Below the pieces are notes generated by a model. That model searched no databases. It was not told where the DNA came from and saw nothing but the letters and a program-made list of their open reading frames with translations. DNA of 20,180 nt from a virus. A program made the position numbers and the translations under genes. The stretch is taken from positions 1-20,180 of IMG/VR virus record IMGVR_UViG_3300042881_000237. One strand, written 5' to 3'. This document shows positions 2,117-20,133 of this stretch, in pieces. Position 1 is the stretch's first letter. Every line of letters begins with the position of its first letter.

Positions 2117-3157
2117 TCAGCCCATGTTATAGATTGCAAGATCAGCCAAGCCTGCGGGTTTATCCCTATACGCAACATCCTCAACAGCGCCGCCCTTCTT
2201 GAACACGCCCAAGCCTTTAGCGGCAAGGCCAACACCTGCTATTTGCGAAATCGGACTTGCAGGAGGTGCGTACAGGGTACTGCCCATCTGAGACAGAGGT
2301 GCGCCGCGAATAATATCTGACATGAAGCCCATTTGCTTGTAGGGCTGGTTTTGAGCGTTGAGCCACTCTTGGTATTGGTTGCCAAGAATAGTATTCATCT
2401 GTTGCTGTTGCTGGCCACCGTATTGGTTCTGCAACTTGTTAATATCCATGCCTTGAGTGAACTGGTTTTGGCCAATTGTGTTCAAGGTGTTAGCGCCTGT
2501 AAGAGCTGTTTGCAAACCTTGCAGGCCAAGACCTGCGCCATACTGGCGTGACTGCTCGTTTAACTGCGCCGCTTGCTGGCGTTGCTGTTGCTCTGTATTA
2601 AACTGGTTTAGTGCTTGGCCGTAAGCGTTCTGCATGCCAGTAGCAAAGATGTCGCCCTTTTGACGAGCCAAATTACCAGCGGCCTGACCCCGCATAAGAT
2701 AGTCACCACTACCGCCAAACGCACCCGCACGAGCCGCTTGAGCTTGCTGAGACTGTCCTGCAATAGCCGCTTGACGCGCAGCATCTTGTTGCTGGCGCTG
2801 AATGACTTGCTGAACATAGGGCGACATGTATTGAGACAGCGTATCACCGCCAGTCACGCTACCTGATTGGTAATTGCTAGGGCCGTACTGTGTGTTGAGT
2901 GCTTGTTGCCCAGCCAAACCCGCCAAACCTGAAGCGCCTGCCAGTTGATATGAAGGCTGCATTTGCTGAGCGCCTTCAAAGGATTGCTTTTGAAGTGGGG
3001 AGAACTGCGCAACACGCTCTTTTGTATACGCCTCATAGGGGATATTGGGGTTAGAAAACGCTTGCGCTTGGCCCAGCAGAGTTGTTGCATACGGCGCAAC
3101 CTCAGGCGCAAAACCTACTTGATTCTGCGTTGTTTGTTGTATGGTTTGGCTAGTCAT
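2117..3157 (-). CDS. Gln/Ala-rich virion protein, probable ejection or internal protein
   Basis: This 346-aa protein is very rich in Gln, Ala and Gly, with long amphipathic or coiled-coil helices (about residues 105-215, many 'QQQ' and 'AQAA' runs) and no enzymatic motif. The C-terminal 60 residues turn hydrophobic ('ISQIAGVGLAAKGLGVF') and then contain 'FKKGGAVEDVAYRDKPAG', a Gly-Gly motif resembling those in both flanking genes. Size, composition and position between the transglycosylase and the 747-aa protein suggest a component of the DNA-ejection apparatus, comparable in character to internal virion proteins of podoviruses. I cannot name a family from sequence alone. The ATG has a strong AAGGAG site that overlaps the stop codon of the upstream gene, so the two are translationally linked. 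Confidence 0.85.
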   Translation of the reverse strand: MTSQTIQQTTQNQVGFAPEVAPYATTLLGQAQAFSNPNIPYEAYTKERVAQFSPLQKQSFEGAQQMQPSYQLAGASGLAGLAGQQALNTQYGPSNYQSGSVTGGDTLSQYMSPYVQQVIQRQQQDAARQAAIAGQSQQAQAARAGAFGGSGDYLMRGQAAGNLARQKGDIFATGMQNAYGQALNQFNTEQQQRQQAAQLNEQSRQYGAGLGLQGLQTALTGANTLNTIGQNQFTQGMDINKLQNQYGGQQQQQMNTILGNQYQEWLNAQNQPYKQMGFMSDIIRGAPLSQMGSTLYAPPASPISQIAGVGLAAKGLGVFKKGGAVEDVAYRDKPAGLADLAIYNMG

Positions 3158-3164
3158 TTACTGA

Positions 3165-3170
3165 CTCCTT
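3165..3170 (-). promoter_or_regulatory. Shine-Dalgarno AAGGAG overlapping the upstream stop codon
   Basis: On the minus strand the bases read TAAGGAG, where TAA is the stop of the 747-aa gene (3169-3171) and AAGGAG is the ribosome site for the ATG at 3155-3157, seven bases downstream. This fixes the start of the 346-aa protein and suggests re-initiation by ribosomes finishing the upstream gene. Confidence 0.8.
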
Positions 3171-5412
3171 ATGCGGGAAGATGTTTCTCAGAGCGGGAGT
3201 TGGCGGCTACTTTGCCCTTACCAACAGTCTTGCCCCGAGCTTTTTGAATGCGATCCATCATGGCGTACAGCTTACGTGCGCCAGCTTCTGTAGAGCCGTT
3301 ACCCAGCTCAGACACAATACGTGCGGGTACTACGAACTCACCATCGGCAAGACGTGCGGGGTGCTTCTTACGGCCAATCGTAGCAGGGATGCTGTCAGAC
3401 ACGCCGTCTCCGGGACCCTTGAGCAAACGGCCACCATCAGAGTAACCGCCCAGTGCACCAAGACCACCAAGGGCGTAGCGGGGCATCATGCCGCCGTTGG
3501 CGTAGCCCATCAAACCACCGTTGGCCTTACCGGCAGACTCAAAAGCGTCTTCGTCAAGATCATTACCATCATCAAACCACCAGTCGCCACCGCCGTCACC
3601 GGTATCGTCCACAGGGCCATAGTCATATACGGAATTCGGCGCAGGCGCAGGCGCAGGCGCAGGCTCAGGAACATAGGGCTGATCGTATGGATCGCCTTGA
3701 GGAGGCGTATAGGGCTGATCGTATGGATCGCCTTGATATGGTACAGGCTCTGGCACACCTGTGTTCCCATAACCGGGCTCGAAGAAGTTTGGATCAACTG
3801 GCTCTGGGTCAGGAATATAGGGCGGTGGCTCAACAGGCAGTGGCTCAACAGGCTGATCATACGGATCCCCTTGAGGAGGTACATAAGGCTGATCATACGG
3901 ATCCCCTTGAGGAGGTACATAAGGCTGATCATACGGATCCCCTTGAGGAGGTACATAGGGCTGATCGTACGGATCCCCTTGAGGAGGTACATAGGGCTGA
4001 TCGTACGGATCCCCTTGAGGCGGCGTTACAGGCGTAGGGGTAAGATCTACAACAGGTATGTTGGGGTTAGCTGGCTCGGGCACAAAGCCTGAATACGTAG
4101 TTGAGGACCCAGTATCGGACCCGGCGTTACCTACGCTCGCACCCCCGCCACCACCTCCGCCACCACCAGTACCACCCCCGCCACCACCGCCTGTAACTGG
4201 CTGCGTCTTCATAGGATCAGTAGTCGTAGCAGGTGTTGTGGTTGTAGCTGGAGCGTTTGTGTTTGAAACAACGGGTCTGGGCGCAATTGCTTGAATTCCC
4301 GCGGGGGCAGCGCTTGCAGTATTACCCATCAAATAGTCGTACGCATCCTTAGACTGGCCAGACAGGGTGTTAAATCTGGCATACGGATCGTTTGTATTTT
4401 GAGCTGGGGCCTGTGCTTGTGCTTGTGCCTGTGCTTGTGCCTGTGCCTGTGCTTGTGCTTGTGCTTGTGCTTGTTGTGCCTGCGCGTATAAAGCGGGGTC
4501 TGCTCTTTGTTCTAATTGTTTTAAAAGACCGCCAGCAAAATACCCAGCTACCCCGCCGTCAGCCAACGCTACGATACCGCCGCTGGCCATGCCGGGTGGG
4601 AGCTGCTGTCCTAGACCTGCTGGGGGTGCGGATGGTGCGGGGGGTGCGGTCTCCCCTTTACGAATAAAGTCAGGGAACTGACGAGCGCCCCACTCACTGG
4701 CCAGCACGGGGTCCATTGCCCTGACTGTACGGGTATTAGCGTCATACTGGAATGGGCGAATGTAGCCGGGGGTGGCAGCAGGCATTTTGGTCGTTGTTGG
4801 GACCATGGCGTCAGCAATAAACGGAGACGCGGCGGCAAGACCCGCCTTCCAATTGTCTTTGGCAAACTGTCCAAGCGCGGAGGGGCTATCAGTAACAGCT
4901 TTAAATCCAGCTCCGATTTTGTCTAGGTTTGATGTAGCCGCAGCGTTGGCGGCGGGGGCAGTGGCGGCATTTTGAAAACCTAAAGCCTGTGCTTGAGCAT
5001 CTGTCAAAGAGGTTGCCAAATTAGCGCCAGCACCAGCACCAACCTTAGCACCCGCACCCATAAAAGCTTCGCCTAAACCTGCACCACCATAAGCGCCAAG
5101 ACCTGCCATCAAGCCTTTAGACAAACTTCCAGAAGCCAAAGCAGTAACGCCGCCGACTGCTAATCCAGCGCCTGCGGCGCTCATCAAACCAAAACCAGCA
5201 GGGCCTAGTGCAAAGCCTGCAATCATGGGCAAAAGCTTCTTCAAGAAGCCAGCTTCAGGCAAACCTGTGTCAGGGTTGATAGTCAGTGAACCGCCATTTT
5301 TCATGGCCAATGCCTGCAGACTCGCCACTTCTTCGGGAGTCATGTGAACAAGCATGGAATCAGAGCCACGCCCTTTTGTGGCCATGTGGTTGGCTAATAC
5401 GTGAAGGCTCAT
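3169..5412 (-). CDS. Large low-complexity virion protein with tandem PPQGDPYDQPYV repeats
   Basis: This 747-aa protein has a mosaic layout. Residues 20-60 hold a conserved-looking start ('HMTPEEVASLQALAMKNGG', then 'INPDTGLPEAGF'). Residues 60-130 are Gly/Ala-rich and hydrophobic, a possible membrane-inserting part. 'ALADGGVAGYFAGG' follows at 282-295, Gln-Ala alternation at 310-336, two Gly runs near 408-424, five tandem 'PPQGDPYDQPYV' units (464-521) and two more (560-581), Ala-Pro alternation (584-592), an acidic patch (600-625) and several Gly-Gly motifs (630-661). The end carries 'GPGDGVSDSIPA' (666-677) and 'LADGEFVVPARIVSELGNGS' (688-707), a motif pair I recognise from the C-termini of phage tape-measure and ejection proteins. 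The role is therefore probably an internal, ejection or tape-measure-like protein; the exact function is unknown. A GAGAGG site five bases before the ATG supports this start over later Met codons at residues 10, 20 and 24. Confidence 0.88.
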   Translation of the reverse strand: MSLHVLANHMATKGRGSDSMLVHMTPEEVASLQALAMKNGGSLTINPDTGLPEAGFLKKLLPMIAGFALGPAGFGLMSAAGAGLAVGGVTALASGSLSKGLMAGLGAYGGAGLGEAFMGAGAKVGAGAGANLATSLTDAQAQALGFQNAATAPAANAAATSNLDKIGAGFKAVTDSPSALGQFAKDNWKAGLAAASPFIADAMVPTTTKMPAATPGYIRPFQYDANTRTVRAMDPVLASEWGARQFPDFIRKGETAPPAPSAPPAGLGQQLPPGMASGGIVALADGGVAGYFAGGLLKQLEQRADPALYAQAQQAQAQAQAQAQAQAQAQAQAQAPAQNTNDPYARFNTLSGQSKDAYDYLMGNTASAAPAGIQAIAPRPVVSNTNAPATTTTPATTTDPMKTQPVTGGGGGGGTGGGGGGGGGASVGNAGSDTGSSTTYSGFVPEPANPNIPVVDLTPTPVTPPQGDPYDQPYVPPQGDPYDQPYVPPQGDPYDQPYVPPQGDPYDQPYVPPQGDPYDQPVEPLPVEPPPYIPDPEPVDPNFFEPGYGNTGVPEPVPYQGDPYDQPYTPPQGDPYDQPYVPEPAPAPAPAPNSVYDYGPVDDTGDGGGDWWFDDGNDLDEDAFESAGKANGGLMGYANGGMMPRYALGGLGALGGYSDGGRLLKGPGDGVSDSIPATIGRKKHPARLADGEFVVPARIVSELGNGSTEAGARKLYAMMDRIQKARGKTVGKGKVAANSRSEKHLPA
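3677..3742 (-). repeat. Two in-frame 36-bp repeat units (QGDPYDQPY), diverged cluster
   Basis: Two copies (3677-3712 and a partial one from 3713) of the same 36-base unit as the main array, but with 'tatggatcgcc' where that array has 'tacggatcccc'. They encode residues 560-581 of the 747-aa protein and are separated from the main array by about 110 bases of non-repeated, Pro/Glu-rich coding sequence. Confidence 0.85.
3851..4020 (-). repeat. In-frame tandem array of 36-bp units (about five copies)
   Basis: Units start at 3851, 3887, 3923, 3959 and 3995; the last diverges after about 26 bases. Each encodes the 12-residue unit PPQGDPYDQPYV of the 747-aa virion protein. Copies 1-3 carry 'gatcatacgg' and copies 4-5 'gatcgtacgg', so the array looks like stepwise duplication of neighbours. 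As 36 is a multiple of three, gain or loss of a unit keeps the frame. Confidence 0.95.
4141..4191 (-). repeat. Poly-glycine coding run (GGN repeats)
   Basis: A C-rich stretch on the plus strand that reads as runs of GGN codons on the minus strand, giving a flexible Gly linker broken by one Thr at about residues 408-424 of the 747-aa protein. It lies between the Gln-Ala segment and the tandem Pro-rich repeats. Confidence 0.85.
4411..4490 (-). repeat. Hexanucleotide repeat encoding alternating Gln-Ala
   Basis: About thirteen 6-base units (plus-strand TGTGCT or TGTGCC) encode a (Gln-Ala)n stretch at residues 310-336 of the 747-aa protein. The third-position C/T variation between units is irregular, which fits slippage. 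The number of units is likely to vary between related phages. Confidence 0.9.
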
Positions 5413-8229: not shown

Positions 8230-8658
8230 TCAAGCATAAAGCCGTGTGCCTGTTTTATCAATAATCAGCGCTTGTTTTCTTGGCTTGGCGTCTGGCGTGT
8301 TTGGGATGCTCACATGGGTCCAGCGGTCAAACTCACGGATGACTTGGTCGTATGGCAGGCCAGACGCAATGATGGTTTTGACCACTTCGTCAGGGGTTAG
8401 TTGAGGTACTCGGATGTCCACAGCACAACCAATGCGATGCTGGCTAGTATCTTTAGAACCAACAGCATCATTGACTTGCTTGCTGCGAAAAGCAGAGTTA
8501 ACCATGACTGGTCTTCCGCCCAAGGCAGTTTTGACTTCCTCAAGGAAGGCGGCGAGCCGCTTAAGGTTCTCCAGCTCGGCTTCGTTTGGGGTGTTGTCAT
8601 ACTGTCTGTGGTCAGTGTGCGTGAGTTCTTCAAGGGTGAAATGTGGTGTCAGATTCAT
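8230..8658 (-). CDS. Endolysin, peptidase M15 family (D-Ala-D-Ala carboxypeptidase-like)
   Basis: This 142-aa protein matches the M15 zinc peptidase fold used by phage endolysins to cut peptidoglycan cross-links or stem peptides. Visible motifs are 'VNSAFRS' (53-59), the zinc-binding 'SQHRIGCAVDI' with H74 and D81, and the terminal 'EFDRWTHVSI' with candidate catalytic E109 and third ligand H115. The length is typical for a single-domain enzyme. There is no signal peptide, so it needs a holin; the holin gene lies immediately upstream and overlaps it by four bases (ATGA). It is the last gene of the six-gene lysis cassette. Confidence 0.95.
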   Translation of the reverse strand: MNLTPHFTLEELTHTDHRQYDNTPNEAELENLKRLAAFLEEVKTALGGRPVMVNSAFRSKQVNDAVGSKDTSQHRIGCAVDIRVPQLTPDEVVKTIIASGLPYDQVIREFDRWTHVSIPNTPDAKPRKQALIIDKTGTRLYA

Positions 8659-9062
8659 TTTTTAATCCTATCTGCAATTTTTTCCATTGTGCGTCCACCG
8701 AAGTAGAACGACATCACGAGCATGCCCCATTGTCCCAGCAATTCAACGTAAGCGCCACGGGTTTCGTACTCAAATATTGAGGCAATGGCAAAGCCAGAAT
8801 ACGCCAATAGCAAGAAGATCAGCGTCAGAGGACGGATGTTCTTAGACAGCCAAGAGTCACTGGACATGTCAGCTTTGACCCGCTCGGTCAGGTTGTTCTG
8901 CTCAGTCTTGTACAGCTCGGTTTCGTTAGCCATCCTTGCTAATTCGCCATCTTGTGCCATTTTTGCAAGGTCAAGTTGCGCCTTGGCTTTAGCCTCTGGG
9001 TCTGGAATCAGCTTGTCAATGAGCTTACCGCCCACGTTTAAAAGTGCGTCTAGTCCAATCAT
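8655..9062 (-). CDS. Holin of the 3TM superfamily type
   Basis: A 135-aa membrane protein with a soluble charged N-terminal helix (residues 20-65), then the conserved junction 'SDSWLSKNIRPL' (68-79), hydrophobic segments at about 79-97 and 104-122, and a basic end ('RTMEKIADRIKK'). This matches the 3TM holin family first described in gene transfer agents and common in proteobacterial phages. Holins form the inner-membrane lesions that release the endolysin. AAGGA lies upstream of the ATG, and both ends overlap their neighbours by four bases. Only two transmembrane segments are obvious by eye; an N-terminal amphipathic helix (residues 3-19) could supply the third membrane contact. Confidence 0.88.
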   Translation of the reverse strand: MIGLDALLNVGGKLIDKLIPDPEAKAKAQLDLAKMAQDGELARMANETELYKTEQNNLTERVKADMSSDSWLSKNIRPLTLIFLLLAYSGFAIASIFEYETRGAYVELLGQWGMLVMSFYFGGRTMEKIADRIKK

Positions 9063-9352
9063 ACGATTTCCTTCTTTTCTTCTTTGGGTTCGTCTTTAGG
9101 TGGCACCATGTCTTTGAAAACGTCTTTGCCCTTGATAGCCAACAAAGTGCCAAGAGAGCCAAGAATGTATTTGCTCATGTCAGACAACAAAAAGAAAAAC
9201 TGTTTATCTGCTGGCGCAATACCGCTCATGGGCTGCGTTACAAAAACAAGCGAATACATTGACAAGAACACCATCGCTACGATGGTGATGCAAAAACTGA
9301 CTGCAATGGTCAGTTTAATCTTTGCTTCAACGTGGTCAGGATTCCAGTTCAT
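9059..9352 (-). CDS. Two-TM small membrane protein, holin- or antiholin-like
   Basis: A 97-aa protein with two hydrophobic segments (about residues 12-38 and 51-73) joined by a short polar turn ('PMSGIAPADK') and a strongly charged lysine/glutamate C-terminal tail. This is the usual topology of class II holins, and related small proteins sit beside 3TM holins in other environmental phages. It could be a second holin, an antiholin or a regulator of the 3TM holin. It has a good GGAGG site inside the end of the lipoprotein gene and overlaps both neighbours by four bases. The specific function is not proven by sequence. Confidence 0.85.
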   Translation of the reverse strand: MNWNPDHVEAKIKLTIAVSFCITIVAMVFLSMYSLVFVTQPMSGIAPADKQFFFLLSDMSKYILGSLGTLLAIKGKDVFKDMVPPKDEPKEEKKEIV

Positions 9353-9528
9353 CTTACCTCCGATTTCATATCTTCTGCTTTCATGAGCATGTCAGGGCAC
9401 ATTTGAGTAATAGCGCACTGGGGGCGCTGGCACTCAGGCTTTTCCCAATTGTTTCTATCCATACAAGGGTAACGAAACCTGTCTTGACAGCCAGCCAGAA
9501 GCAACAAAAGCGGCAGTAAGTACTTCAT
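9349..9528 (-). CDS. Small cysteine-rich lipoprotein in the lysis cassette
   Basis: This 59-aa ORF was read directly: ATG at 9526-9528, TGA at 9349-9351. It begins 'MKYLLPLLLLLAGC', a short signal peptide with a textbook lipobox (L-A-G-C), so processing would leave a lipidated Cys14 and a mature chain of about 46 residues. The mature part has four further cysteines (C22, C33, C38, C44), several aromatic and Pro residues, and a charged helical end. It would sit in the periplasm on the inner or outer membrane. The position suggests an outer-membrane spanin, but it lacks the proline-rich linker or coiled coil seen in many, so the assignment is tentative. The start overlaps the preceding stop and the stop overlaps the next start, both as ATGA. 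Confidence 0.85.
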   Translation of the reverse strand: MKYLLPLLLLLAGCQDRFRYPCMDRNNWEKPECQRPQCAITQMCPDMLMKAEDMKSEVR

Positions 9529-9674
9529 AGTCCGAACATCCCAAGTAGTTTATTCACAATCTTGTCTGACAGATCATCAGGCAAAAACTTGAGTAAGCCA
9601 AGCACCCACCAAGCAATACACAGCCTGACAAAGACTTTGAGGAACATGTCAAACTGTTTTTGGTACTCATTCAC
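9525..9674 (-). CDS. 49-aa one-TM protein, GTG start
   Basis: Read directly from a GTG at 9672-9674 to the TGA at 9525-9527. The sequence starts MNEYQKQFDMFLKVFVRLCI and runs on as 'AWWVLGLLKFLPDDLSDKIV' to a short hydrophobic end. One transmembrane segment at about 11-31 is followed by an acidic-amphipathic helix. GTG is preferred because it forms a GTGA overlap with the preceding gene, matching the other junctions of this cassette; an internal ATG at codon 10 would remove the polar N-terminus. It resembles no family I can name; a holin-associated or spanin-like inner-membrane partner of the lipoprotein is possible. Confidence 0.75.
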   Translation of the reverse strand: MNEYQKQFDMFLKVFVRLCIAWWVLGLLKFLPDDLSDKIVNKLLGMFGL

Positions 9675-10165
9675 CGACCACACCTTGACTTGGCACACAT
9701 TTCAGCCACTTCATTAAGACCCCAACCAATAGCGCCAACGAGCATCACGATTACAACAATTGCAACGGCCCACTCCATCTGCTCTCGTTCGGCTTCCTTG
9801 CGCCTCTTCTCTTCAGCCTTTAGCTCTGCCATCTCTTTGGCATCATCTCTGTCCATCTCGGCCTGCCGAGCCTTGGTGGCATTCCACACGTCTATGCGTC
9901 CCGCCTGCATGAACAGCATTTTGAGCTGTTCTTCAAACCGCTTCGCTTCATCAAGCGCCATTTCAATCTGTAGTGCCGCGCCAAGGTTTGATTTACCACC
10001 TGTACGTTTAGCCTGAAGCATCGCCTTGGTAGCGGTGCTCTTGGCGTCGAAAAGCCGCGCAATAGATGGAGCCAAGCCAGCTAGGTCATTGGCAACCTTG
10101 CTGGCCTTCTTGACTACGCTGATTGCACTTTGTAGTCCTGCTAGCGCCGTCATCGGGTCAATCAC
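9671..10165 (-). CDS. Helical protein with C-terminal membrane anchor, first gene of the lysis cassette
   Basis: A 164-aa protein starting at GTG (10163-10165) behind an AGGGGG-type ribosome site. Residues 5-40 are a small-residue amphipathic helix region, 45-100 a mixed helical domain ('GKSNLGAALQIEMALDEAKR'), 100-130 a highly charged coiled coil ('EMAELKAEEKRRKEAEREQM'), and 132-150 a single transmembrane segment near the C-terminus. A charged cytoplasmic coiled coil on a C-terminal anchor would suit a tail-anchored inner-membrane protein. Similar small proteins occur next to holins in cyanophage and freshwater phage genomes, by my recollection, without known function. Its stop overlaps the next start as GTGA. 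Assignment to lysis rests on position only. Confidence 0.85.
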   Translation of the reverse strand: MIDPMTALAGLQSAISVVKKASKVANDLAGLAPSIARLFDAKSTATKAMLQAKRTGGKSNLGAALQIEMALDEAKRFEEQLKMLFMQAGRIDVWNATKARQAEMDRDDAKEMAELKAEEKRRKEAEREQMEWAVAIVVIVMLVGAIGWGLNEVAEMCAKSRCGR

Positions 10166-10183: not shown

Positions 10184-10774
10184 TTAGAAAATAACTTCAG
10201 CGCCTATTTCAACGCCAGTTTTTGTTGCAACAATGTTGGAGCCACCACTATCAGTTGCAATTTCAACAGTGTATTGTTTGTAAAATGCGCCATTTGCTGT
10301 TACTGAAATGCCAAAAGATAAAACCGGTGTTATTTGAATCCAAACTCCTCTTGCGTTACCCGTATCGGTTATAGGGCCACCAGAAGAACCAGTTTGCGTA
10401 AATCTTATCCAATAGCTTGAACCAATTCCGGTAGTGGTGGGCGTTGCCCAGTTACCCGAACCTTGTATACCCCCATCGCTAGTGCCAGCTTGTATGGTTC
10501 CGTTACTGTTAAAAATGTATTCAGCGTAAGCAGTATTACCCGGATATGCAAGACCGTATACACCCACTAAAGGTGCTAGAGAAATTGCAATGGACGATTT
10601 ACCCCAATAACTATTAGGCAGTATTAGTGGCCCAGAAGACACGCCAGTCAGCGTTCTGGTTGCTGCACTCGGCATCGTGATTGTCGCTGTTGGCGAATTG
10701 CCCAGCTCAACGTTCACCGAGCGGTTGGCGTCTGACCCGCCCATGCGAATGTAACCAGACGACGCAAGGGTCAT
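10184..10774 (-). CDS. Fibre-like tail protein of unknown family (196 aa)
   Basis: A 196-aa beta-rich, Ser/Thr/Gly-rich protein. The N-terminus ('[20 protein letters not shown]', then 'NVELG') looks like a small tail-attachment module that I recall from other phage fibre or baseplate-associated proteins. The rest alternates short strands and Gly/Ser loops without enzymatic motifs, and ends in a strand-rich tail ('GFISV'-type strands, 'VEIGAEVIF'). Its ATG overlaps the stop of the collagen-like fibre (ATGA) with an AAGGA site, so it is probably made in step with that fibre and may be a partner or receptor-binding tip. The function is unproven. Confidence 0.8.
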
Positions 10775-12231
10775 GATTTATCCTTGAGTTGTTTTTCCAA
10801 AGACACAACTCGCTTGGCCAACTCAATCACCGCAGCCAAAGCAGCGTTACCGTAAGACACAGACATCTTGCCATCATCATGTTTTTGAACTGCATAAGGC
10901 ATGACTTTCTTTAAAGAGCCAGCACCCACGCCAACCTGAGTCAAGGCGGTATCGACACGGTCAAACACGCCGCTCTGAACTTGTGCAAGCTGCTCAATAA
11001 AGTCATCAGGGAAACCACGCCAGTTCATTTTCAGCGTCTCATCAGAATACGCAGTGATGTTACCCAAACAAGTCAGGTTAGTGCCGTCAAATGTCAGGTT
11101 GTTTGAGCCTGTGGAAGTACCGCCACTGTTGTACAAAACTTGACCGCTAGAGCCGCCTGTGGGTCCGGTAGGTCCAGTGGGGCCTGTGGGTCCAGTGGGT
11201 CCGGGACCGCCGGGTGATCCAGTAGGTCCAGTAGGTCCCGTAGGTCCGGGGCCTCCAGTAGGTCCGGGGCTTCCAGTCAAACCTGTGGGGCCTGTGGGTC
11301 CGGGGCCTCCAGTGGGTCCAGTCGGGCCGGGAGGACCCGGTACTGTAGAAGCAGGGCCAGTAGGTCCGGGGGGTCCGGGTACAGTTGATGCAGGGCCAGT
11401 AGGTCCGGGGGGTCCGGGTACAGTTGATGCAGGGCCAGTAGGTCCAGTAGGTCCAGTAGGTCCGGGGCTTCCAGTGGATCCGGTCGGGCCGGGGGGTCCG
11501 GGAACGGTTGATGCGGGTCCGGTAGGTCCGGGGGGTCCGGGTACTGTAGAAGCTGGGCCGGTGGGTCCAGTGGGTCCGGGTGCACCGGTGGGACCTGTGG
11601 GTCCGGTGGGACCTGTAGGGCCGGTAGGTCCTGCAACACCAGCAGCCCATGTGCCGTCACCACGCCAGAATGTAGAAGCCGAGGCGCTTGTACCGCTGCC
11701 TAAGTTAGTGACAGGTAAGTTGCCCGTAACGTTGGTGGCCAAGTTTACGAACGTGGTTGAGGCTGTACCTGTACCGCCAGATGTGATTGGCAAGGGTGTA
11801 CCCAGAGCCAGCGTAGACAAATAGTCAATTTGGTTGCCAACGTCAGTGCCGTTGTTGTAGACCACCGTGCGTTTGCCAGACGGCACAGACACACCTGTTT
11901 GGCCAGAGACCTTGACGGTAATTGCAAAAGAGTCGTTGTTGATAATCAGGTACGGCTTCTGAATTGCGGGGACGTTTAGCGTACCGGCAGCAGACAAGCA
12001 TCCTGAAGAGATCACCAAGCACAGCGCCCGAGCATTTTGAGCCGAAGTTGTGTTGGACAGCGTGAGTGTGGCTACGTTGGAGGTAAAGTTGGCAGAGGTT
12101 AGTGTGGCCATACCAACAATGGCTTGCTCAATGGCGGTGCCGATATTGCTGTTGGTTGTCGTGCCCCATGCGCCCGATTGTTCACCCGTCGTGATTAGCT
12201 CAAACTTAAGATTGGAAAAGGTACTTGCCAT
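10771..12231 (-). CDS. Collagen-like tail fibre with C-terminal S74-type chaperone
   Basis: A 486-aa fibre protein. Residues 1-150 are an N-terminal domain ('[20 protein letters not shown]') that I associate with fibre attachment in many phages, ending in a 'SGGTGTAS' junction. Residues 201-359 are collagen-like Gly-X-Y repeats, mostly Gly-Pro-Thr with five 'GPPGPTG' blocks and 'ASTVP' breaks, expected to form a triple-helical stalk. After a short beta segment, residues 394-486 carry 'SDETLK' (S396 and K401), the Ser-Lys dyad pattern of the S74 intramolecular chaperone, then a C-terminal coiled coil ('[14 protein letters not shown]'). S74 domains help trimerise beta-fibres and are often cut off at the Ser. 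GAGGA precedes the ATG. Cleavage is inferred, as the dyad context differs somewhat from 'SDxRLK'. Confidence 0.9.
11155..11631 (-). repeat. Collagen-like Gly-Pro-Thr coding repeats
   Basis: A 477-base run of GGN-CCN-ACN-type codons encoding residues 201-359. It contains nested longer units, notably 39-base copies encoding '[13 protein letters not shown]' that appear five times in two clusters (about 11335-11430 and 11480-11575). Because the triplets are G/C-rich and periodic, the opposite strand also stays open and reads as Gly-Pro-Val, which is a side effect of the repeat. Confidence 0.93.
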
Positions 12232-13149: not shown

Positions 13150-13155
13150 CTCCTT
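13150..13155 (-). promoter_or_regulatory. Shine-Dalgarno AAGGAG fixing a GTG start
   Basis: The minus strand reads TAAGGAG, five bases, then GTG (13142-13144). The TAA is the stop of the 2OG oxygenase gene, so the site supports translational coupling and the non-ATG start of the 298-aa repeat protein. Confidence 0.8.
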
Positions 13156-13693
13156 ATCGGAACCTAGGGCCGTTAAACCACATGGTAGCCGAGTAGCGAA
13201 TTCCTGACGTCACAGGGATAACCCTATGTTCAAGAATAGACGGGAACGCAATCATTGTCCCCTTTTTCAGCGGTGCTGTGTAGTCGCTGTACAGCCGCAC
13301 TTGGAACTGCCCCGCCTCAAACTCATCGTTCAAGAGGCAGACCACGGTAATCTTGCGGTCTGTTGGAGTGCCAACCAATGTGAAGGTGTCGGTGTGCCAA
13401 GCGTAGTGCTGCTCTGGTCCGTACTCGGCGAACTGAACATTCTCGCGGCCAGTAATGTGGTAATCCCACTTACAGACCTTGTTGGCTTCTAGCGCAAACT
13501 GCTCTAACTTGTCGCCAAGCCAGTAGTTGTCACCGCCAAACCGCACATTGGTATTGCGGGTAGTTTTGTCGTAGGTCTCCCCAGCCACTCCCATAGAAGC
13601 GTCGCGCACCTCGATGCCGGACAGCTCTGCAATGATTTGATCGCAGGTAGCGCTGTCCAGTTCGGATGTATACCAGATGGGTAGGTGTGCCAT
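13154..13693 (-). CDS. 2-oxoglutarate/Fe(II)-dependent oxygenase (prolyl-4-hydroxylase/PKHD-like)
   Basis: This 179-aa protein has the full active-site set of the 2OG-Fe(II) oxygenase superfamily: the iron-binding 'WHTD' (H100 and D102), the distal His in 'FPSILEHRVIPVTSGIRYSA' (H156), and the 2-oxoglutarate-binding Arg ten residues later (R166, with S168). The 'HRV.PVT.G.RYS' string is characteristic of the prolyl-4-hydroxylase/PiuC-like branch. Such enzymes use O2 and 2-oxoglutarate to hydroxylate proteins or small molecules. Members are common in cyanophages and other environmental phages, where substrates are mostly unknown. Here the enzyme is embedded in the tail-fibre operon, one gene before the repeat protein and two before the collagen-like fibre, so a virion protein is a reasonable candidate substrate. 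The ATG overlaps the preceding stop by one base (TAATG). No signal peptide is seen, which suggests cytosolic action. Confidence 0.93.
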   Translation of the reverse strand: MAHLPIWYTSELDSATCDQIIAELSGIEVRDASMGVAGETYDKTTRNTNVRFGGDNYWLGDKLEQFALEANKVCKWDYHITGRENVQFAEYGPEQHYAWHTDTFTLVGTPTDRKITVVCLLNDEFEAGQFQVRLYSDYTAPLKKGTMIAFPSILEHRVIPVTSGIRYSATMWFNGPRFR

Positions 13694-14235: not shown

Positions 14236-15675
14236 TTAAACAATGTATGAAATAGTGCCTTGAATTTCGCCAGCAGCACTCATACCTGAAACATCTGCAA
14301 ACTGGGTAGCCGCATCTGTAATAACAATTGCCAAATCAGCGCCTGTGTAATTTTGAGACATTGCCCAAGTTATTTGAGTACCCACTGCAAATCCAACCCC
14401 AGAAGTGTAGCCAACAGCACCGGTAGCCCTGTAACTAGCCGCAGAAGTTGAAGTAAATGGAAACCCATTAACACTAAGAGTGCCAGAGCCGCTTTTAGCT
14501 GACCACATAACAAAAAAGTTGACCGTTACAAGGCGTCCTACTTTGGTATAAAAACCAGTCCGAACACCGTATGTAAATGTTCCGGCTGCAAAAGCGGGAG
14601 TAAACGTACCCTCTTCGTAGTCATCCAATGTGTTTGAGTCAGCTGATGCTACTTGAGTTGCGGGGAAGTTGATGCCCGTAAAGTGGCCTGTTTTAAACCG
14701 ATAGCCAGTAGAACCAATGTCTACAAGAGCGCTTTGACGAACATTCAGGCCGTCAAGAGTTGGCTCAAAAGAAGCTCCGTTGAACATAATGCCAGAATAG
14801 CCCGATGCGTTTGAGCCGACAGTGGGAGCGCCGTTGAATGAACCCAAAGCGGTCGAGTTAAGGCCGCCAACTTGCGTTTGAAGATGCACTCCATTTGAGG
14901 CTTTTTTGATGTAAAAGGTACCGTCTGTGTCTATACGGGCTTTTTCTGAAAACCCATCAACATAGAAAGCAATATGAGAACCAGCACGTAAGCTGTCTAC
15001 GTCTGCAACAAGAGCAAGTGAATTATCTGCGTTTGAATTTACGCCAACAAAACCACCAGCTTCACTGTTTGTTGTAACAAAAGTTTCACCACCAAGCACC
15101 TGCAGTCTACCAACAGTAGCAGTTCCAATCGATGAAGTAGTGCCAACTAGTAAGCGACCGCTTGAGTCTATACGGGCAACAGCCGTACCGGAACCATTAA
15201 CATATAAACGAATCCCCCCGCCAGTTTCCGAGAACAAACCAGCATCACTAGATGTGTTCCCTTCAATGGCTCCGCTTACACCCAAAATAGCTTTAGTACT
15301 TCCGTTTTGTCTGGCGGCAAATGCGCCCCCGCCCGTTGTACTGGAGTTATCAATAAAGATTGTTCCGTAGTTTCCAGACGCTTTTGCATGGATGATGGTA
15401 CTAGGAGAACTTACCCCCACACCCAAGTTAGTACCATCAAACACCAACGCACTGCCGCTTGTCAGAACCTTAGAGGCGTTTAAATACAGGACGCCGTTGG
15501 CTGTGCCGCCGGTGTATGCAGGCTGATTGGCAAAAGTTACGACTTGGGATGCGCTGATACTGATCGCAGTTGTACCGTTGGTCTGAAGATCCAAGACCCC
15601 AGAGTTGTCAGCACTCGACTTGAGGCCAGCTGTTCCACTGACTACGCCGTTGTCGGCATTTAGCGATGAGGCCAT
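14236..15675 (-). CDS. Tail fibre protein with unassigned C-terminal beta domain (479 aa)
   Basis: A 479-aa fibre. The N-terminal part ('SSADNSGVLDLQTNGTTAIS') and the middle contain 'NLGVGVSSPSTIIHA', 'VARIDSSGRLLVGTTSS' and 'EKARIDTDGTFYIKKA', members of the GxxGVGTxSP / ARIDSSG repeat family typical of trimeric beta-helical phage fibres. The end is marked by 'DDYEEGTFTPAF' (about residue 350), followed by a beta-rich domain of about 120 residues with no S74 dyad and no C1q pattern; this is the likely receptor-binding or stabilising tip. It starts one base inside the stop of the 706-aa fibre gene (TAATG) behind AAAGGAG. It is a paralogue of the two larger fibres upstream in the repeated region, differing at its end. 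Confidence 0.88.
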   Translation of the reverse strand: MASSLNADNGVVSGTAGLKSSADNSGVLDLQTNGTTAISISASQVVTFANQPAYTGGTANGVLYLNASKVLTSGSALVFDGTNLGVGVSSPSTIIHAKASGNYGTIFIDNSSTTGGGAFAARQNGSTKAILGVSGAIEGNTSSDAGLFSETGGGIRLYVNGSGTAVARIDSSGRLLVGTTSSIGTATVGRLQVLGGETFVTTNSEAGGFVGVNSNADNSLALVADVDSLRAGSHIAFYVDGFSEKARIDTDGTFYIKKASNGVHLQTQVGGLNSTALGSFNGAPTVGSNASGYSGIMFNGASFEPTLDGLNVRQSALVDIGSTGYRFKTGHFTGINFPATQVASADSNTLDDYEEGTFTPAFAAGTFTYGVRTGFYTKVGRLVTVNFFVMWSAKSGSGTLSVNGFPFTSTSAASYRATGAVGYTSGVGFAVGTQITWAMSQNYTGADLAIVITDAATQFADVSGMSAAGEIQGTISYIV

Positions 15676-17795
15676 TACGCGGCTCCTTTAATTGTTGCCA
15701 GCTCGGATTTTACCGAATCAAGTTCTGCTTTGAGTTCTTGGATGGCTGCGGTCAGGGTTGCTACTAGGAACGATACATCAATGCCTTGGTACTGGGGGTT
15801 GCCTTCTGCATCAACAGCATCCTTTATTCCTGTTACAGCTTGGGGCATAACTTCTGCAAGCTCATGGGCAATAAAACCTTGACCGTCTGAACCGTCAATC
15901 TTCCATTTGTAGGTGACAGGCTTAAGCGAAGCAACCTTGGCAAGCGCATCAGTCATTGGCTGGATGTCTGCCTTCAGGCGGTAGTCCGATGCTGTGTTGT
16001 AAGCGGTTGATGAACCACTGGTAATAATTGAACCAACAGCGCCGTTGGGGTTTTTAAAATAGCCAACGTAACTACTTGCGGTTGAAGTTGCTGAAGCAAT
16101 AATTCCCCAGCCCGCGCCACCAAGAAATGAAGTGTTTGCAAAAGCTAGTCCGCCCGATGAGGGGTTTGAACTCGTAGTCCCCACCAACACATTACCTTCA
16201 CCATCAACCCGCATACGCTCATAGCAATCAGTAAGGCCGCTAGTAGTTGCGTTGTGTGTATAAAAAGCAAGGACTGTGTCCCATCCACTATCAGGAGCGG
16301 ATCGGAATGAAGCAATACCCGCTTGGTGTGGTCCAGTAGCAAACCACAAACCAACAGCATTATTTGTAGTTGCTGTAGTGGTATTGTAGATTTGGATACC
16401 CTGCATGTTGCTACCAATAGTAGCTGTGCCAGTTATAACCGCGCCCGCAGCCGCCGCCGATAATCTCATTGGAGGATCTGTTCTGCCAACACCTAAATTA
16501 CCACTTGGATCAAAGCGAGCACGTTCTGTCAGCGTAGTGTCTGTTCCTACAGAAACAGTGGCCTCCGCTGCCGTGAAGAACTTAATTGCGCCATACCCAA
16601 CATTAACGGCAGACCTTGCCCAAGCAAGATTAAAAGAGCTTGCAAACCCGTTTGAGGTGCTGCTGTAACGAACGCCACTACCAAGCACTAAATCGCCACT
16701 GCCTGCCTGACGGAACATAGTGGCAAGACTGGTGTTATCAGTTGACTCCGGGAAAGAAATGTTGGTGCTGTTTGCAACGCCAAAACCGGGAGAACCATTC
16801 CCTGTAGTTCCCACCAGAAAGTTGCCACCTGAGGTTATACGGGCACGTTCTGAGCCATTGGCATTAAATGTCATAGCACCATATGGTGAATTTAATCTAA
16901 GAATGCCAGCGTATGCACTAAGGTTTGCACCCCAACTAATAATGTCTTCATTTGCAAATCTAAAACGCATATAGTTATATGCGCCACCCGCAGTTGCAAG
17001 GTTGATATCAACAAATTGATTAACCGCACTTGATGTGTCTTGCAAACTTAAAGCCGTTTGACCATTACCAAAATTATTTCCGTAAATTGTTCCCGCAACA
17101 GATAGACGACCGTTGTCAGCTGTAGTGCCAACCAGTAAATTTCCGCCTGACGTTATACGGACACGTTCTGTGTTGTTAGTGCCTAATGTCAGTGCTGCAT
17201 TCGCGCTATTTTGGATAATGAATACGCCACCAGTTGACTTAATATTGCCCGTGTAAACAGAGTTATCAATTAAGTCTATTCGGGGGATGGTTGCGTTAGT
17301 AGCAATTTCAAGCGCGTAGCCAGTACCGTATGCACCCGCAGTATTTCTAATATCAACAGTATTGCCAATAACGGTTACTTTGCCGTTTGGCGACGCAGTA
17401 CCAATACCAAAGTTACCAGAGGAGCTAAGATTAAGTGCGGTCGCATTAGCTGTGTTACCAATGGATAAGTCACCAGAACCAGTCGTGATGCCAATATAAA
17501 GATTACCGTTTGAAGCCGCTTCAATTCGGCCTACATTAGTGCCGTTGTAGTCTGTGTAGATTCCAGAATTTCCGCTTGTACGCTTTACATACAGAGCAGA
17601 CGCAGGCGACGCAGTACCAACACCCAAGTTACCACTTGAGTTCAAAACCAAATTGCCATTGGCCACGTTCAACGTGTCTGTGCTCTGGTCGCCCAGAATG
17701 GTGTTGCCTGTGGTTGTTAAGTTGATGAGCGTGGTACTGCCCGTGTTAATCAGGCCGGGCGTTGTAATCCCAGTATCGCCATTGAGCGTAATCAT
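15675..17795 (-). CDS. Tail fibre with C-terminal S74 intramolecular chaperone (706 aa)
   Basis: A 706-aa fibre that opens with 'MITLNGDTGITTPGLINTGS' and a short linker to a beta-helix region of many 'GNLGVGTASP' and 'ERARITSGGNFLVGTT' repeats spanning about residues 50-590. Residues 600-706 are an S74 domain: 'SDYRLK' (S603 and K608 as the Ser-Lys dyad), 'QGFIAHELAEVMPQAV', 'GIDVSFLVATLTAAIQELKA' and a C-terminal coiled coil. Such domains fold and trimerise the fibre and are then self-cleaved before the Ser. The consensus match is close, so autocleavage is expected. GGAG precedes the ATG three bases after the upstream 83-aa gene. Confidence 0.92.
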   Translation of the reverse strand: MITLNGDTGITTPGLINTGSTTLINLTTTGNTILGDQSTDTLNVANGNLVLNSSGNLGVGTASPASALYVKRTSGNSGIYTDYNGTNVGRIEAASNGNLYIGITTGSGDLSIGNTANATALNLSSSGNFGIGTASPNGKVTVIGNTVDIRNTAGAYGTGYALEIATNATIPRIDLIDNSVYTGNIKSTGGVFIIQNSANAALTLGTNNTERVRITSGGNLLVGTTADNGRLSVAGTIYGNNFGNGQTALSLQDTSSAVNQFVDINLATAGGAYNYMRFRFANEDIISWGANLSAYAGILRLNSPYGAMTFNANGSERARITSGGNFLVGTTGNGSPGFGVANSTNISFPESTDNTSLATMFRQAGSGDLVLGSGVRYSSTSNGFASSFNLAWARSAVNVGYGAIKFFTAAEATVSVGTDTTLTERARFDPSGNLGVGRTDPPMRLSAAAAGAVITGTATIGSNMQGIQIYNTTTATTNNAVGLWFATGPHQAGIASFRSAPDSGWDTVLAFYTHNATTSGLTDCYERMRVDGEGNVLVGTTSSNPSSGGLAFANTSFLGGAGWGIIASATSTASSYVGYFKNPNGAVGSIITSGSSTAYNTASDYRLKADIQPMTDALAKVASLKPVTYKWKIDGSDGQGFIAHELAEVMPQAVTGIKDAVDAEGNPQYQGIDVSFLVATLTAAIQELKAELDSVKSELATIKGAA
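16815..17174 (-). repeat. Dispersed 30-50-bp fibre repeats (ERARITSGGN / LLVGTT) in the 706-aa gene
   Basis: Copies at about 16815-16858 and 17131-17174 share the strings 'cca.cagaaagttgcc' or 'ccagtaaatttccgcc' followed by 'tatacgg.cacgttctg' on the plus strand. They match similar segments in the neighbouring 690-aa gene more closely than random coding sequence would, giving sites for recombination between fibre genes. Confidence 0.75.
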
Positions 17796-18060: not shown

Positions 18061-20133
18061 TTAACCTAAAAGCCAGCCCATAAAGCCACTAACAATACCG
18101 TTACTGCTAGTGTTGATGTCATCTGAACCGGACAATACAACAGCGGGTGAAGCACCGTTGTAGAACCCCGCCTGTACGAAATCATTTGCAGATAAACTTA
18201 TAGTGAGTGTAGTCGTGCCGTTAGGCCCGTACCCCGCGCCGTTAACAAAAGCGCGAGAAAACTCGACACCATTGACATATATTTTTGGCTCATACGTAGT
18301 ACTGCTCACTGGACGACCAGAAGTTTGGTGGCAAAAATAGTAAACCCCTGTAACAGGAGCGGTGAACCTGCCATTCCCAGAGTTATAGTGCCCGCCACGG
18401 TTTAATTTTACAGATCCGTATATGTAAGGAGAACTGCCGGGCGTAAATGTTATGGCTTGTTCCGTCGCCATAAACGCTGGCTGATACGGCAGTGTTAGTT
18501 GGCCGCCTGTATTTACGCGCAACCTTTCTGTAAATGCGCCGTTGGTTGTGTTGACCTGCCCAAAAGTAAAAATTCCGTTACCGCCGCCGGGAGCACCAGA
18601 CCAAGCAGATAACTCATAGCTGGAACCACTTAAATCAACCCCAAAGCCAGAAGCTACACCACCTGAAGACCCATCATCGTATACGGCTAGTTTTCTTCCA
18701 ACCGCATTACCTAAACTTAAACGATATTGCGGAGTCGAAGTGCCAATACCAAAGTTACCGCCTGATGTTATACGGACACGTTCTGAACCGCCTGATGAAA
18801 ATGTAAACGCACCAGCAGATGTATTGCCAGCAGTAAAACGATATTCACCATCACCTAAAGTACCGCCACCCGCCAGTTTTGAAATTGCGTAAGAGTTATC
18901 AGCGCTGGCGTTAAATTGAATTTTTACGCCTGTTACATCTTTAAATGATAACTCGCCGCCCCCACTAGTTGCTCCAAGTAAAAATTTACCGCTTGAGGTT
19001 ATACGGGCAAGTTCTACGCTTCCGTAGCGGAAATAAATACTATTTCCATTCCCGGATGTAATCGCCGCATCTGATGACGTTGCAATAACGACGCTACCCG
19101 CAAGCCCAGTTGTTGTAGGGCCATCTTGAGCGTTGCCATACAAGTTTATTGAAGCGCCTTTACTAAGGTTAAGTGATCCGGGATTGCCTACTTGTATATT
19201 TAAACCAAACCCTTGATTTGCTGATGTACCAGATGTCATCAACGCATTACCAAATTGATCCGTGCTAAACCCAATCCCTTGTCCAACATTTACCGCAAGT
19301 TTTCCAAAAGAAGAAGGGCTTGTAGTACCGATACCAAAATTACCGCTTGTGTCTATACGGGCACGTTCTGTGTTGTTGGTGACGAAAAGTAACGGGTGAT
19401 TTGACTCCGTACCAAATAGAACTATTGACCCGTCAGAACTATTCCATACGGATGTTACTCCTACAGAAGTTTCTTTGTTGTAAATAAGAGACGGCCCAGA
19501 TTTTGAAACTTCAAGTCTTCCGCTAGGGCTTGTAGTACCAATACCAAAGTTACCGGCTGAGGTTATGCGGGCACGTTCTGCTCCATTGGTACTAAGCTGT
19601 AAAGAACCCGCTCTTGTGTTTACAACAGACATTTCAGTACCATCGTGATACACATAACCTGCGGCATTACCGCCTGTCTTCAACGCCAACAAAGATGTTG
19701 AAGAACCATTGATCTCAACTAAGCCACGACCCGATGCGCTATAAGTTGGCGATGTTGTCCCAACCAGCAAGTTACCACTTGAGTCTATACGGGCGCGTTC
19801 TGCGCCATTAGTATTAAAAATTAGAGCAAGGTAATCAGCCCCACCATTTATGCTGTATTCAGTACTAGAAGAGCCAAAACGCAATGTGCCTTGAGTATCA
19901 CTTCCAGTAGAAACAATTACAGGAGTTCCTGTTGCGCCTGTTTTTAATCTAGCTGAACCTGAAACATCTAATTTATATGCGGGACTTCCTGTACCAATAC
20001 CAACGTTTTGACTCGTATCAATAGTCACCGCAGTCGTAGCAGACGCGCCAGTCTTAAGTACCAGCGCTCCCGTAGAGTCTGATGTGACGACGTACCCAGT
20101 CGTGGTAGTTGTTCCGGCGGCTATGCTACTCAT
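18061..20133 (-). CDS. Tail fibre with C-terminal C1q/TNF-like domain (690 aa)
   Basis: A 690-aa fibre. From about residue 25 to 540 it is built of beta-helical repeats of the 'NVGIGTGSPAYKLDVSGSAR' and 'GAERARIDSSGNLLVGTTSP' type, at least six recognisable. Residues 548-690 form a C1q/TNF-like jelly-roll end: 'QPAFMATEQAITF', 'FTAPVTGVYYF', 'KIYVNGVEFSRAF', 'LSANDFVQAGFYNG' and a hydrophobic final strand 'SGFMGWLLG'. C1q-like tips trimerise and often bind carbohydrates or proteins, so receptor recognition is likely. The ATG follows AAGGA overlapping the previous stop. The repeat body is shared with the 706-aa and 479-aa fibres, while the tip differs from both. Confidence 0.9.
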   Translation of the reverse strand: MSSIAAGTTTTTGYVVTSDSTGALVLKTGASATTAVTIDTSQNVGIGTGSPAYKLDVSGSARLKTGATGTPVIVSTGSDTQGTLRFGSSSTEYSINGGADYLALIFNTNGAERARIDSSGNLLVGTTSPTYSASGRGLVEINGSSTSLLALKTGGNAAGYVYHDGTEMSVVNTRAGSLQLSTNGAERARITSAGNFGIGTTSPSGRLEVSKSGPSLIYNKETSVGVTSVWNSSDGSIVLFGTESNHPLLFVTNNTERARIDTSGNFGIGTTSPSSFGKLAVNVGQGIGFSTDQFGNALMTSGTSANQGFGLNIQVGNPGSLNLSKGASINLYGNAQDGPTTTGLAGSVVIATSSDAAITSGNGNSIYFRYGSVELARITSSGKFLLGATSGGGELSFKDVTGVKIQFNASADNSYAISKLAGGGTLGDGEYRFTAGNTSAGAFTFSSGGSERVRITSGGNFGIGTSTPQYRLSLGNAVGRKLAVYDDGSSGGVASGFGVDLSGSSYELSAWSGAPGGGNGIFTFGQVNTTNGAFTERLRVNTGGQLTLPYQPAFMATEQAITFTPGSSPYIYGSVKLNRGGHYNSGNGRFTAPVTGVYYFCHQTSGRPVSSTTYEPKIYVNGVEFSRAFVNGAGYGPNGTTTLTISLSANDFVQAGFYNGASPAVVLSGSDDINTSSNGIVSGFMGWLLG
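18735..19806 (-). repeat. Dispersed 30-60-bp fibre repeats (NFGIGTTSP / ERARIDSSG) in the 690-aa gene
   Basis: At least five copies, near 18735-18792, 18965-19020, 19313-19380, 19528-19590 and 19754-19806, carry plus-strand 'ccaataccaaagttaccg' type segments followed by 'tatacgggcacgttctg'. The DNA match between copies is high over 30-60 bases, whereas the sequence between copies is unrelated. Confidence 0.8.

Follow-up and report, generated by a model that had tools for sequence, protein, structure and literature searches.

In phage T4 the holin T acts with the periplasmic antiholin RI, which is a SAR protein and not a lipoprotein. In phage ICP1 holin activity has been demonstrated for the protein TeaA, a member of family PF11351 (GTA_holin_3TM), and ArrA is the antiholin (PMC7182436). 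Cassettes coding two holin-like proteins, one with two transmembrane (TM) segments and N-in/C-in topology (PMC13056207), are described for F1 mycobacteriophages (LysF1a and LysF1b) and for phage P1 (LydA/B/C/D) (PMC13056207; PMC9025707). A survey of spanins, to which Rz/Rz1 belong, lists 91 of 677 phages without a recognisable one (PMC6139136).

The window analysed here is the whole 20,180-nt stretch of a possibly incomplete virus record and represents a phage fragment of freshwater type. It carries a cassette of six minus-strand genes, named A to F in their order of reading (Table 1). Gene E codes for a protein of the TeaA family and lies directly before the endolysin gene F, with the particularity that, unlike in ICP1, it follows A-B-C-D and shares 4 bases with the start of the endolysin gene. 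The cassette shares with F1 and P1 the presence of two different holin-like membrane proteins (E and, putatively, D) beside an endolysin, but the protein families differ and the abstract of PMC13056207 mentions no lipoprotein partner. The association of a membrane protein (D) with a small cysteine-containing partner outside the membrane (C) may work like T4 holin T with RI. C is, like Rz1, a short lipoprotein coded in a lysis cassette; however, it co-occurs with Rz-type spanins, and the window gene is neither embedded in nor overlapping a long inner-membrane spanin (i-spanin) gene. Searches of the open-licence literature turned up no account of either family, C or D. The C-D pair, a lipoprotein and a two-helix protein, is a candidate for a new kind of holin control.

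Gene products and junctions of the cassette

The six genes have exactly the lengths, and are joined by exactly the five successive 4-base overlaps, given in the original prediction. Simple hydropathy and sequence patterns served to assign TM segments and lipoboxes, and gene starts are inferred.

Table 1. Positions of the cassette genes, their overlaps and other features of the window.
Feature	Position	Strand	Length	Description
Gene A	9671..10165	minus	164 aa	GTG start; phrog_32327, function not annotated (E 1.2e-7)
Gene B	9525..9674	minus	49 aa	GTG start; small protein with one TM segment
Gene C	9349..9528	minus	59 aa	lipoprotein, lipobox LAGC (residues 11-14), Cys14
Gene D	9059..9352	minus	97 aa	phrog_25359, function not annotated (E 8.6e-10)
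Gene E	8655..9062	minus	135 aa	GTA_holin_3TM family holin by family match (PF11351; phrog_3427 holin)
Gene F	8230..8658	minus	142 aa	M15-type endolysin by family match (PF08291; phrog_894)
A-B overlap	9674-9671	minus		GTGA
B-C overlap	9528-9525	minus		ATGA
C-D overlap	9352-9349	minus		ATGA
D-E overlap	9062-9059	minus		ATGA
E-F overlap	8658-8655	minus		ATGA; holin stop / endolysin start
Further 4-base overlap	10774-10771
Collagen-repeat tail protein and 2OG-Fe(II) oxygenase	10771-12231 and 13154-13693	minus		PF01391; PF13640
Repeat protein	3169-5412	minus		tandem repeats; no Pfam match
Virion-type proteins	129-2111, 15675-17795 and 18061-20133	minus		Transglycosylase SLT (PF01464), Peptidase_S74 fibre chaperone (PF13884), C1q (PF00386)

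The product of E scores above the gathering cut-off of PF11351 (39.6 bits, cut-off 24.8) and matches phrog_3427 with an E-value of 1.1e-25; simple hydropathy marked one TM segment in it and two are plausible by eye. That of F is likewise above the cut-off of PF08291 (60.8 bits, cut-off 23.2), matches phrog_894 (E 1.8e-34) and carries the zinc motif H74-x6-D81 and W-T-H115, with H74, D81 and H115 as ligands. Judged from these curated family matches, E is a PF11351-family holin and F an M15 endolysin, in agreement with the functions first proposed for the last two genes.

The D protein features two hydrophobic segments separated by a conserved loop (VTQPMxGxAPxDKxFF) and a charged carboxyl terminus, with F37, D49 and G65 invariant, and is predicted from hydropathy alone to be an N-in/C-in hairpin. 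It has no match to a curated holin family. C has no match in the PHROG or Pfam families; its mature part has the invariant residues R19, Y20, C22, C33, P36, C38 and C44 (R-Y-x-C ... C ... P-x-C ... C) in 39 aligned relatives and it is probably located outside the inner membrane and disulphide-bonded. Its AF2 model (pLDDT 82) gave no significant PDB fold match.

The A protein has one carboxyl-terminal TM helix (~133-152) and a cytoplasmic part predicted to be helical. It is probably tail-anchored in the inner membrane with its bulk in the cytoplasm, because basic residues precede this carboxyl-terminal TM segment. The AF2 model is all-helical, with four helices (mean pLDDT 88), and the fold search returned no PDB match at E<=0.001. 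A protein of 50-70 aa with a carboxyl-terminal TM segment is coded upstream of A in L086, L091, L149, L169 and many other relatives and was not found in the window; its layout presumably resembles that of XhlA. B belongs to no family in the PHROG and Pfam searches. Its start was placed at GTG 9674 rather than at GTG 9698, which would open a 57-aa ORF, because the same residue (MNEYQKQF) is coded by ATG in relatives L095 and L240.

Overlaps of 4 bases occur at 6 of the 19 junctions in the gene list of the window, and a run of at least five has P = 0.007 when the six are shuffled. Their clustering is beyond chance, yet modest. Ribosome binding sites, read by eye, are good for D and E (CGGAGG, AAGGA), GGGGG for A, and weak for B, C and F. 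Scans for promoters and terminators found nothing above the level of shuffled sequences.

Relatives of the cassette

Viral contigs were searched with E, D and C as anchors, yielding at least ~250 loci, most of them metagenomic fragments that are mutually related so that raw counts overstate independence. Gene order, co-occurrence, overlap conservation and the E and F families were established by sequence comparison. Few relatives were found among named phage genomes; these environmental phages are almost without cultured relatives. Across 84,980 bacterial and archaeal genomes D was matched four times, in MAG contigs, and therefore no host is named.

The order A-C-D recurs across relatives and, among the matches listed, D lies directly downstream of C in 168 of 170 C genes. 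Among the matches listed, 87 C genes are flanked by 2.5 kb or more at either end: an M15, GH19 or GH108 endolysin is coded on the same strand and no more than 2.6 kb away in 78 of them, and A is present in 72. Five of the remaining nine have a GH24 lysozyme downstream (by Pfam in L120 and L197; L123, L126 and L174 are of the L120 type), bringing to 83 of 87 the loci where C has an endolysin beside it, and these endolysins fall into four unrelated classes. The original grouping of the four small genes with the lysis genes is thereby upheld for A, C and D; B is confined to near relatives (20 ORFs among the matches listed). A, C and D are conserved but unnamed membrane families tied to lysis in well over 100 environmental phages and provide a recognisable module for the annotation of aquatic phages.

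On a weakly resolved C+D tree the window groups with its nearest relatives L083 and L095, which have the same A-B-C-D genes; the endolysin is M15 in the window, GH108 in L083 and GH19 in L095, and at least 17 changes of endolysin type are needed over the tree. Such a pattern, read from sequence comparison, would fit A-(B)-C-D being a constant membrane block followed by an exchangeable holin-endolysin pair, a view that we hold with belief and doubt in about equal measure. In some relatives E-F stand alone or A-D are replaced by different small genes, and some have A and E without C-D.

Loci with E-F and without C-D (L003, L011, L019 and similar) carry an alternative block of genes c9, c19 and c3 before E-F. 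The c9 product is a secreted cysteine-containing protein found in most c3-type loci and, among the matches listed, never in the same locus as C. c3, which sits before E where C is absent, is a homologue of D (hhalign on separately built sets, probability 93.5, E 2.4e-7).

In DSL-LC01 (L165; OQ999401.1) the C-D pair, at 2442-3979, lies between a gene with a weak holin PHROG match and a WhiB gene, ~9 kb from the annotated endolysin. The match of the first gene has an E-value of 1.5e-5 and its best match is to a PHROG annotated as nuclease. Its terminase and its WhiB gene have been put forward as grounds for regarding DSL-LC01 as an actinobacteriophage (PMC10611076); the WhiB gene was confirmed by Pfam. 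In the 180-kb contig L219, C-D directly follow a T4-like i-spanin/o-spanin pair (o-spanin, the outer-membrane partner) and the part of the contig that was analysed shows no recognisable endolysin.

The overlaps are unequally conserved. Between holin and endolysin genes, among the matches listed, the 4-base overlap is kept in 51 of the 52 relatives with an M15 endolysin (E-F), in 43/43 for E-GH108, 35/35 for hol159-GH19 (hol159 being a relative of E) and 9/11 for E-GH19, which amounts to 138 of 141 over four holin-endolysin combinations. At 70% non-redundancy it is found in 26 of 27, against a background of 47 of 228 (21%) other same-strand junctions in related contigs (Fisher P = 4e-15). Among the matches listed, B and C overlap in 13/13 relatives and C and D by 4 bases in 101 of 169 and by 1 base in 33 more; A and C overlap in 38/48 where B is absent, A and B in 8/17, and D and E in 7/43. 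The holin-endolysin overlap is the most conserved junction and, as a conserved feature of the sequences, fits translational coupling. The six-gene chain as a single unit would mostly be local to this phage and its near relatives. It need not be one coupled unit, because D and E have good ribosome binding sites of their own and the D-E overlap is not conserved. The initial proposal of coupled translation at fixed ratios suits the holin-endolysin junction best. That all overlaps are a by-product of genome compaction, uninformative on expression ratios, is an alternative of some weight that we tend to doubt: it accounts for the frequency of 4-base overlaps at other junctions, for the scarcity of the D-E and A-B ones and for the strong sites of D and E, but not for a holin-endolysin overlap kept over four gene combinations nor for the constant B-C one.

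Possible roles of the small membrane proteins

The reading preferred here, to which we give roughly an even chance, is that of a late lysis cassette with an exchangeable E-F pair and a constant membrane block, D being holin-like and C its partner or regulator. We infer the topologies, the coupling, the holin activity of D and the regulatory role of C and A. E would permeabilise the inner membrane and F would cut the peptide part of the peptidoglycan, F probably being translated, from its weak ribosome binding site, by ribosomes finishing E via the stop/start overlap. D, a two-helix protein with holin topology, would most likely be a holin or a holin partner. C would pair with it outside the inner membrane and most likely time its triggering, as RI does for the T4 holin. 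A is probably an accessory protein or a regulator, and B may be a clade-specific accessory.

Control of D is the simplest role for C because C is a near-obligate neighbour of D and lies outside the inner membrane; the linkage to D and the invariant cysteines support C as antiholin. A different role of C in lysis, or one in superinfection, is possible. In the inspected cassettes of the Rz type (L177, L240, L241, L182, L238, L156) D is the holin candidate, as the only two-TM protein found there, and in L156 it directly precedes the endolysin. In the window, where E is already a recognised holin, D may act as a further holin or as a partner and need not be the pore-former. Note that D was also considered as the TM domain of phrog_1544/hol159, which was rejected: PHROG matches were weak (E 0.3 and 0.006) and hhalign on separately built sets gave a probability of 0.3.

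Small membrane proteins and lipoproteins are typical of superinfection exclusion, and A-D might be late membrane genes for superinfection exclusion or sensing, or for envelope modification, that share the operon without being engaged in lysis. The lack of functional annotation for A-D in the libraries searched, the ~9 kb between C-D and the endolysin in DSL-LC01 and the stretch of L219 without a recognised endolysin are in line with this possibility. It is nevertheless unlikely, given the proximity of endolysins of four unrelated classes in 83 of 87 loci, the position of D as the only polytopic protein found in the inspected Rz-type cassettes, and the neighbours of C-D, which are a spanin-like pair in L219 and the gene with the weak holin match in DSL-LC01.

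The slot between D and the endolysin contains E (121 loci), hol159 (35) or an Rz-like spanin, never both, and a PF11351-type holin and an Rz-like spanin never occur in the same locus (156 loci versus 74 with any spanin), in each case among the matches listed. Rz genes were identified by PHROG and partly by Pfam models. A lipobox ORF, Rz1-like, is embedded in 41 of the 64 untruncated ones, and the other 23 may have variants outside the search pattern. In L159-type loci the Rz/Rz1 pair is found upstream of A. The 43 whole records of the E or hol159 type gave no strong Rz match, and one weak match (E 0.006) inside a 627-aa ORF, versus strong matches in all Rz-type records of the modelled family by the same search. 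Hardly any lipobox ORF besides C was found near E/hol159 genes, and among E/hol159 loci that include flanks about half are without C. The E-type and Rz-type slots switch ~3 times on the weakly resolved C-D tree, which gives the exclusion only a small number of independent events as its basis.

These observations bear on the original suggestion that one of the small genes codes for a spanin, for which C would be the outer-membrane half, with B or A as the inner half, or a disruptor of its own, completing a holin-endolysin-spanin set. C has the lipobox signal sequence, no other gene on the coding strand shows a clear lipobox in the window, where no other spanin was seen, and its cysteines are a common feature of o-spanins (PMC6139136). 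Many relatives code, directly upstream of C, a small protein with a TM segment and a carboxyl-terminal coiled coil; in L182-L247 it has ~95 aa, a basic and probably disordered amino terminus, a TM segment at ~45-63 and a short coiled coil. The window has no suitable gene for an amino-terminal TM segment followed by a coiled coil, whether adjacent to, overlapping or embedding C. A and B do not have the long periplasmic domain of an i-spanin, the TM segment of A being at the carboxyl-terminal end, with charges on its amino side, in the wrong orientation, and B having at most ~18 residues beyond its TM segment. A spanin function of C is disfavoured and improbable, since 74 loci code an Rz-like or T4-like spanin next to C, with Rz1-like ORFs as above, B also accompanies Rz/Rz1 (L177, L240, L241), C is missing from about half of the E/hol159 loci, and C is also coded by DSL-LC01, a likely actinophage that would face no outer membrane of the Gram-negative kind.

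In the E-type records without detectable spanin a role of C in outer-membrane breakage is possible. A broader view, which we consider quite improbable, is that C-D form an unrecognised holin system under the control of a cysteine-rich lipoprotein, common to many phages of aquatic origin and to one or more likely actinophages, and that phages with a PF11351-type holin in the slot after D dispense with Rz/Rz1, E or E plus C-D also rupturing the outer membrane. The complete exclusion between PF11351-type holins and Rz-type spanins among these loci turns into a testable question by what means the outer membrane is opened when a phage has no visible spanin.

Other genes of the window

A tail protein with collagen repeats (GPTGPTGP) is coded two genes from a 2OG-Fe(II) oxygenase (Table 1), and hydroxylation of the collagen-like fibre by this neighbour is possible. 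A further minus-strand gene codes for a protein with tandem PQGDPYDQPYVP repeats, and three regions code for virion-type proteins with Transglycosylase SLT, Peptidase_S74 and C1q domains.
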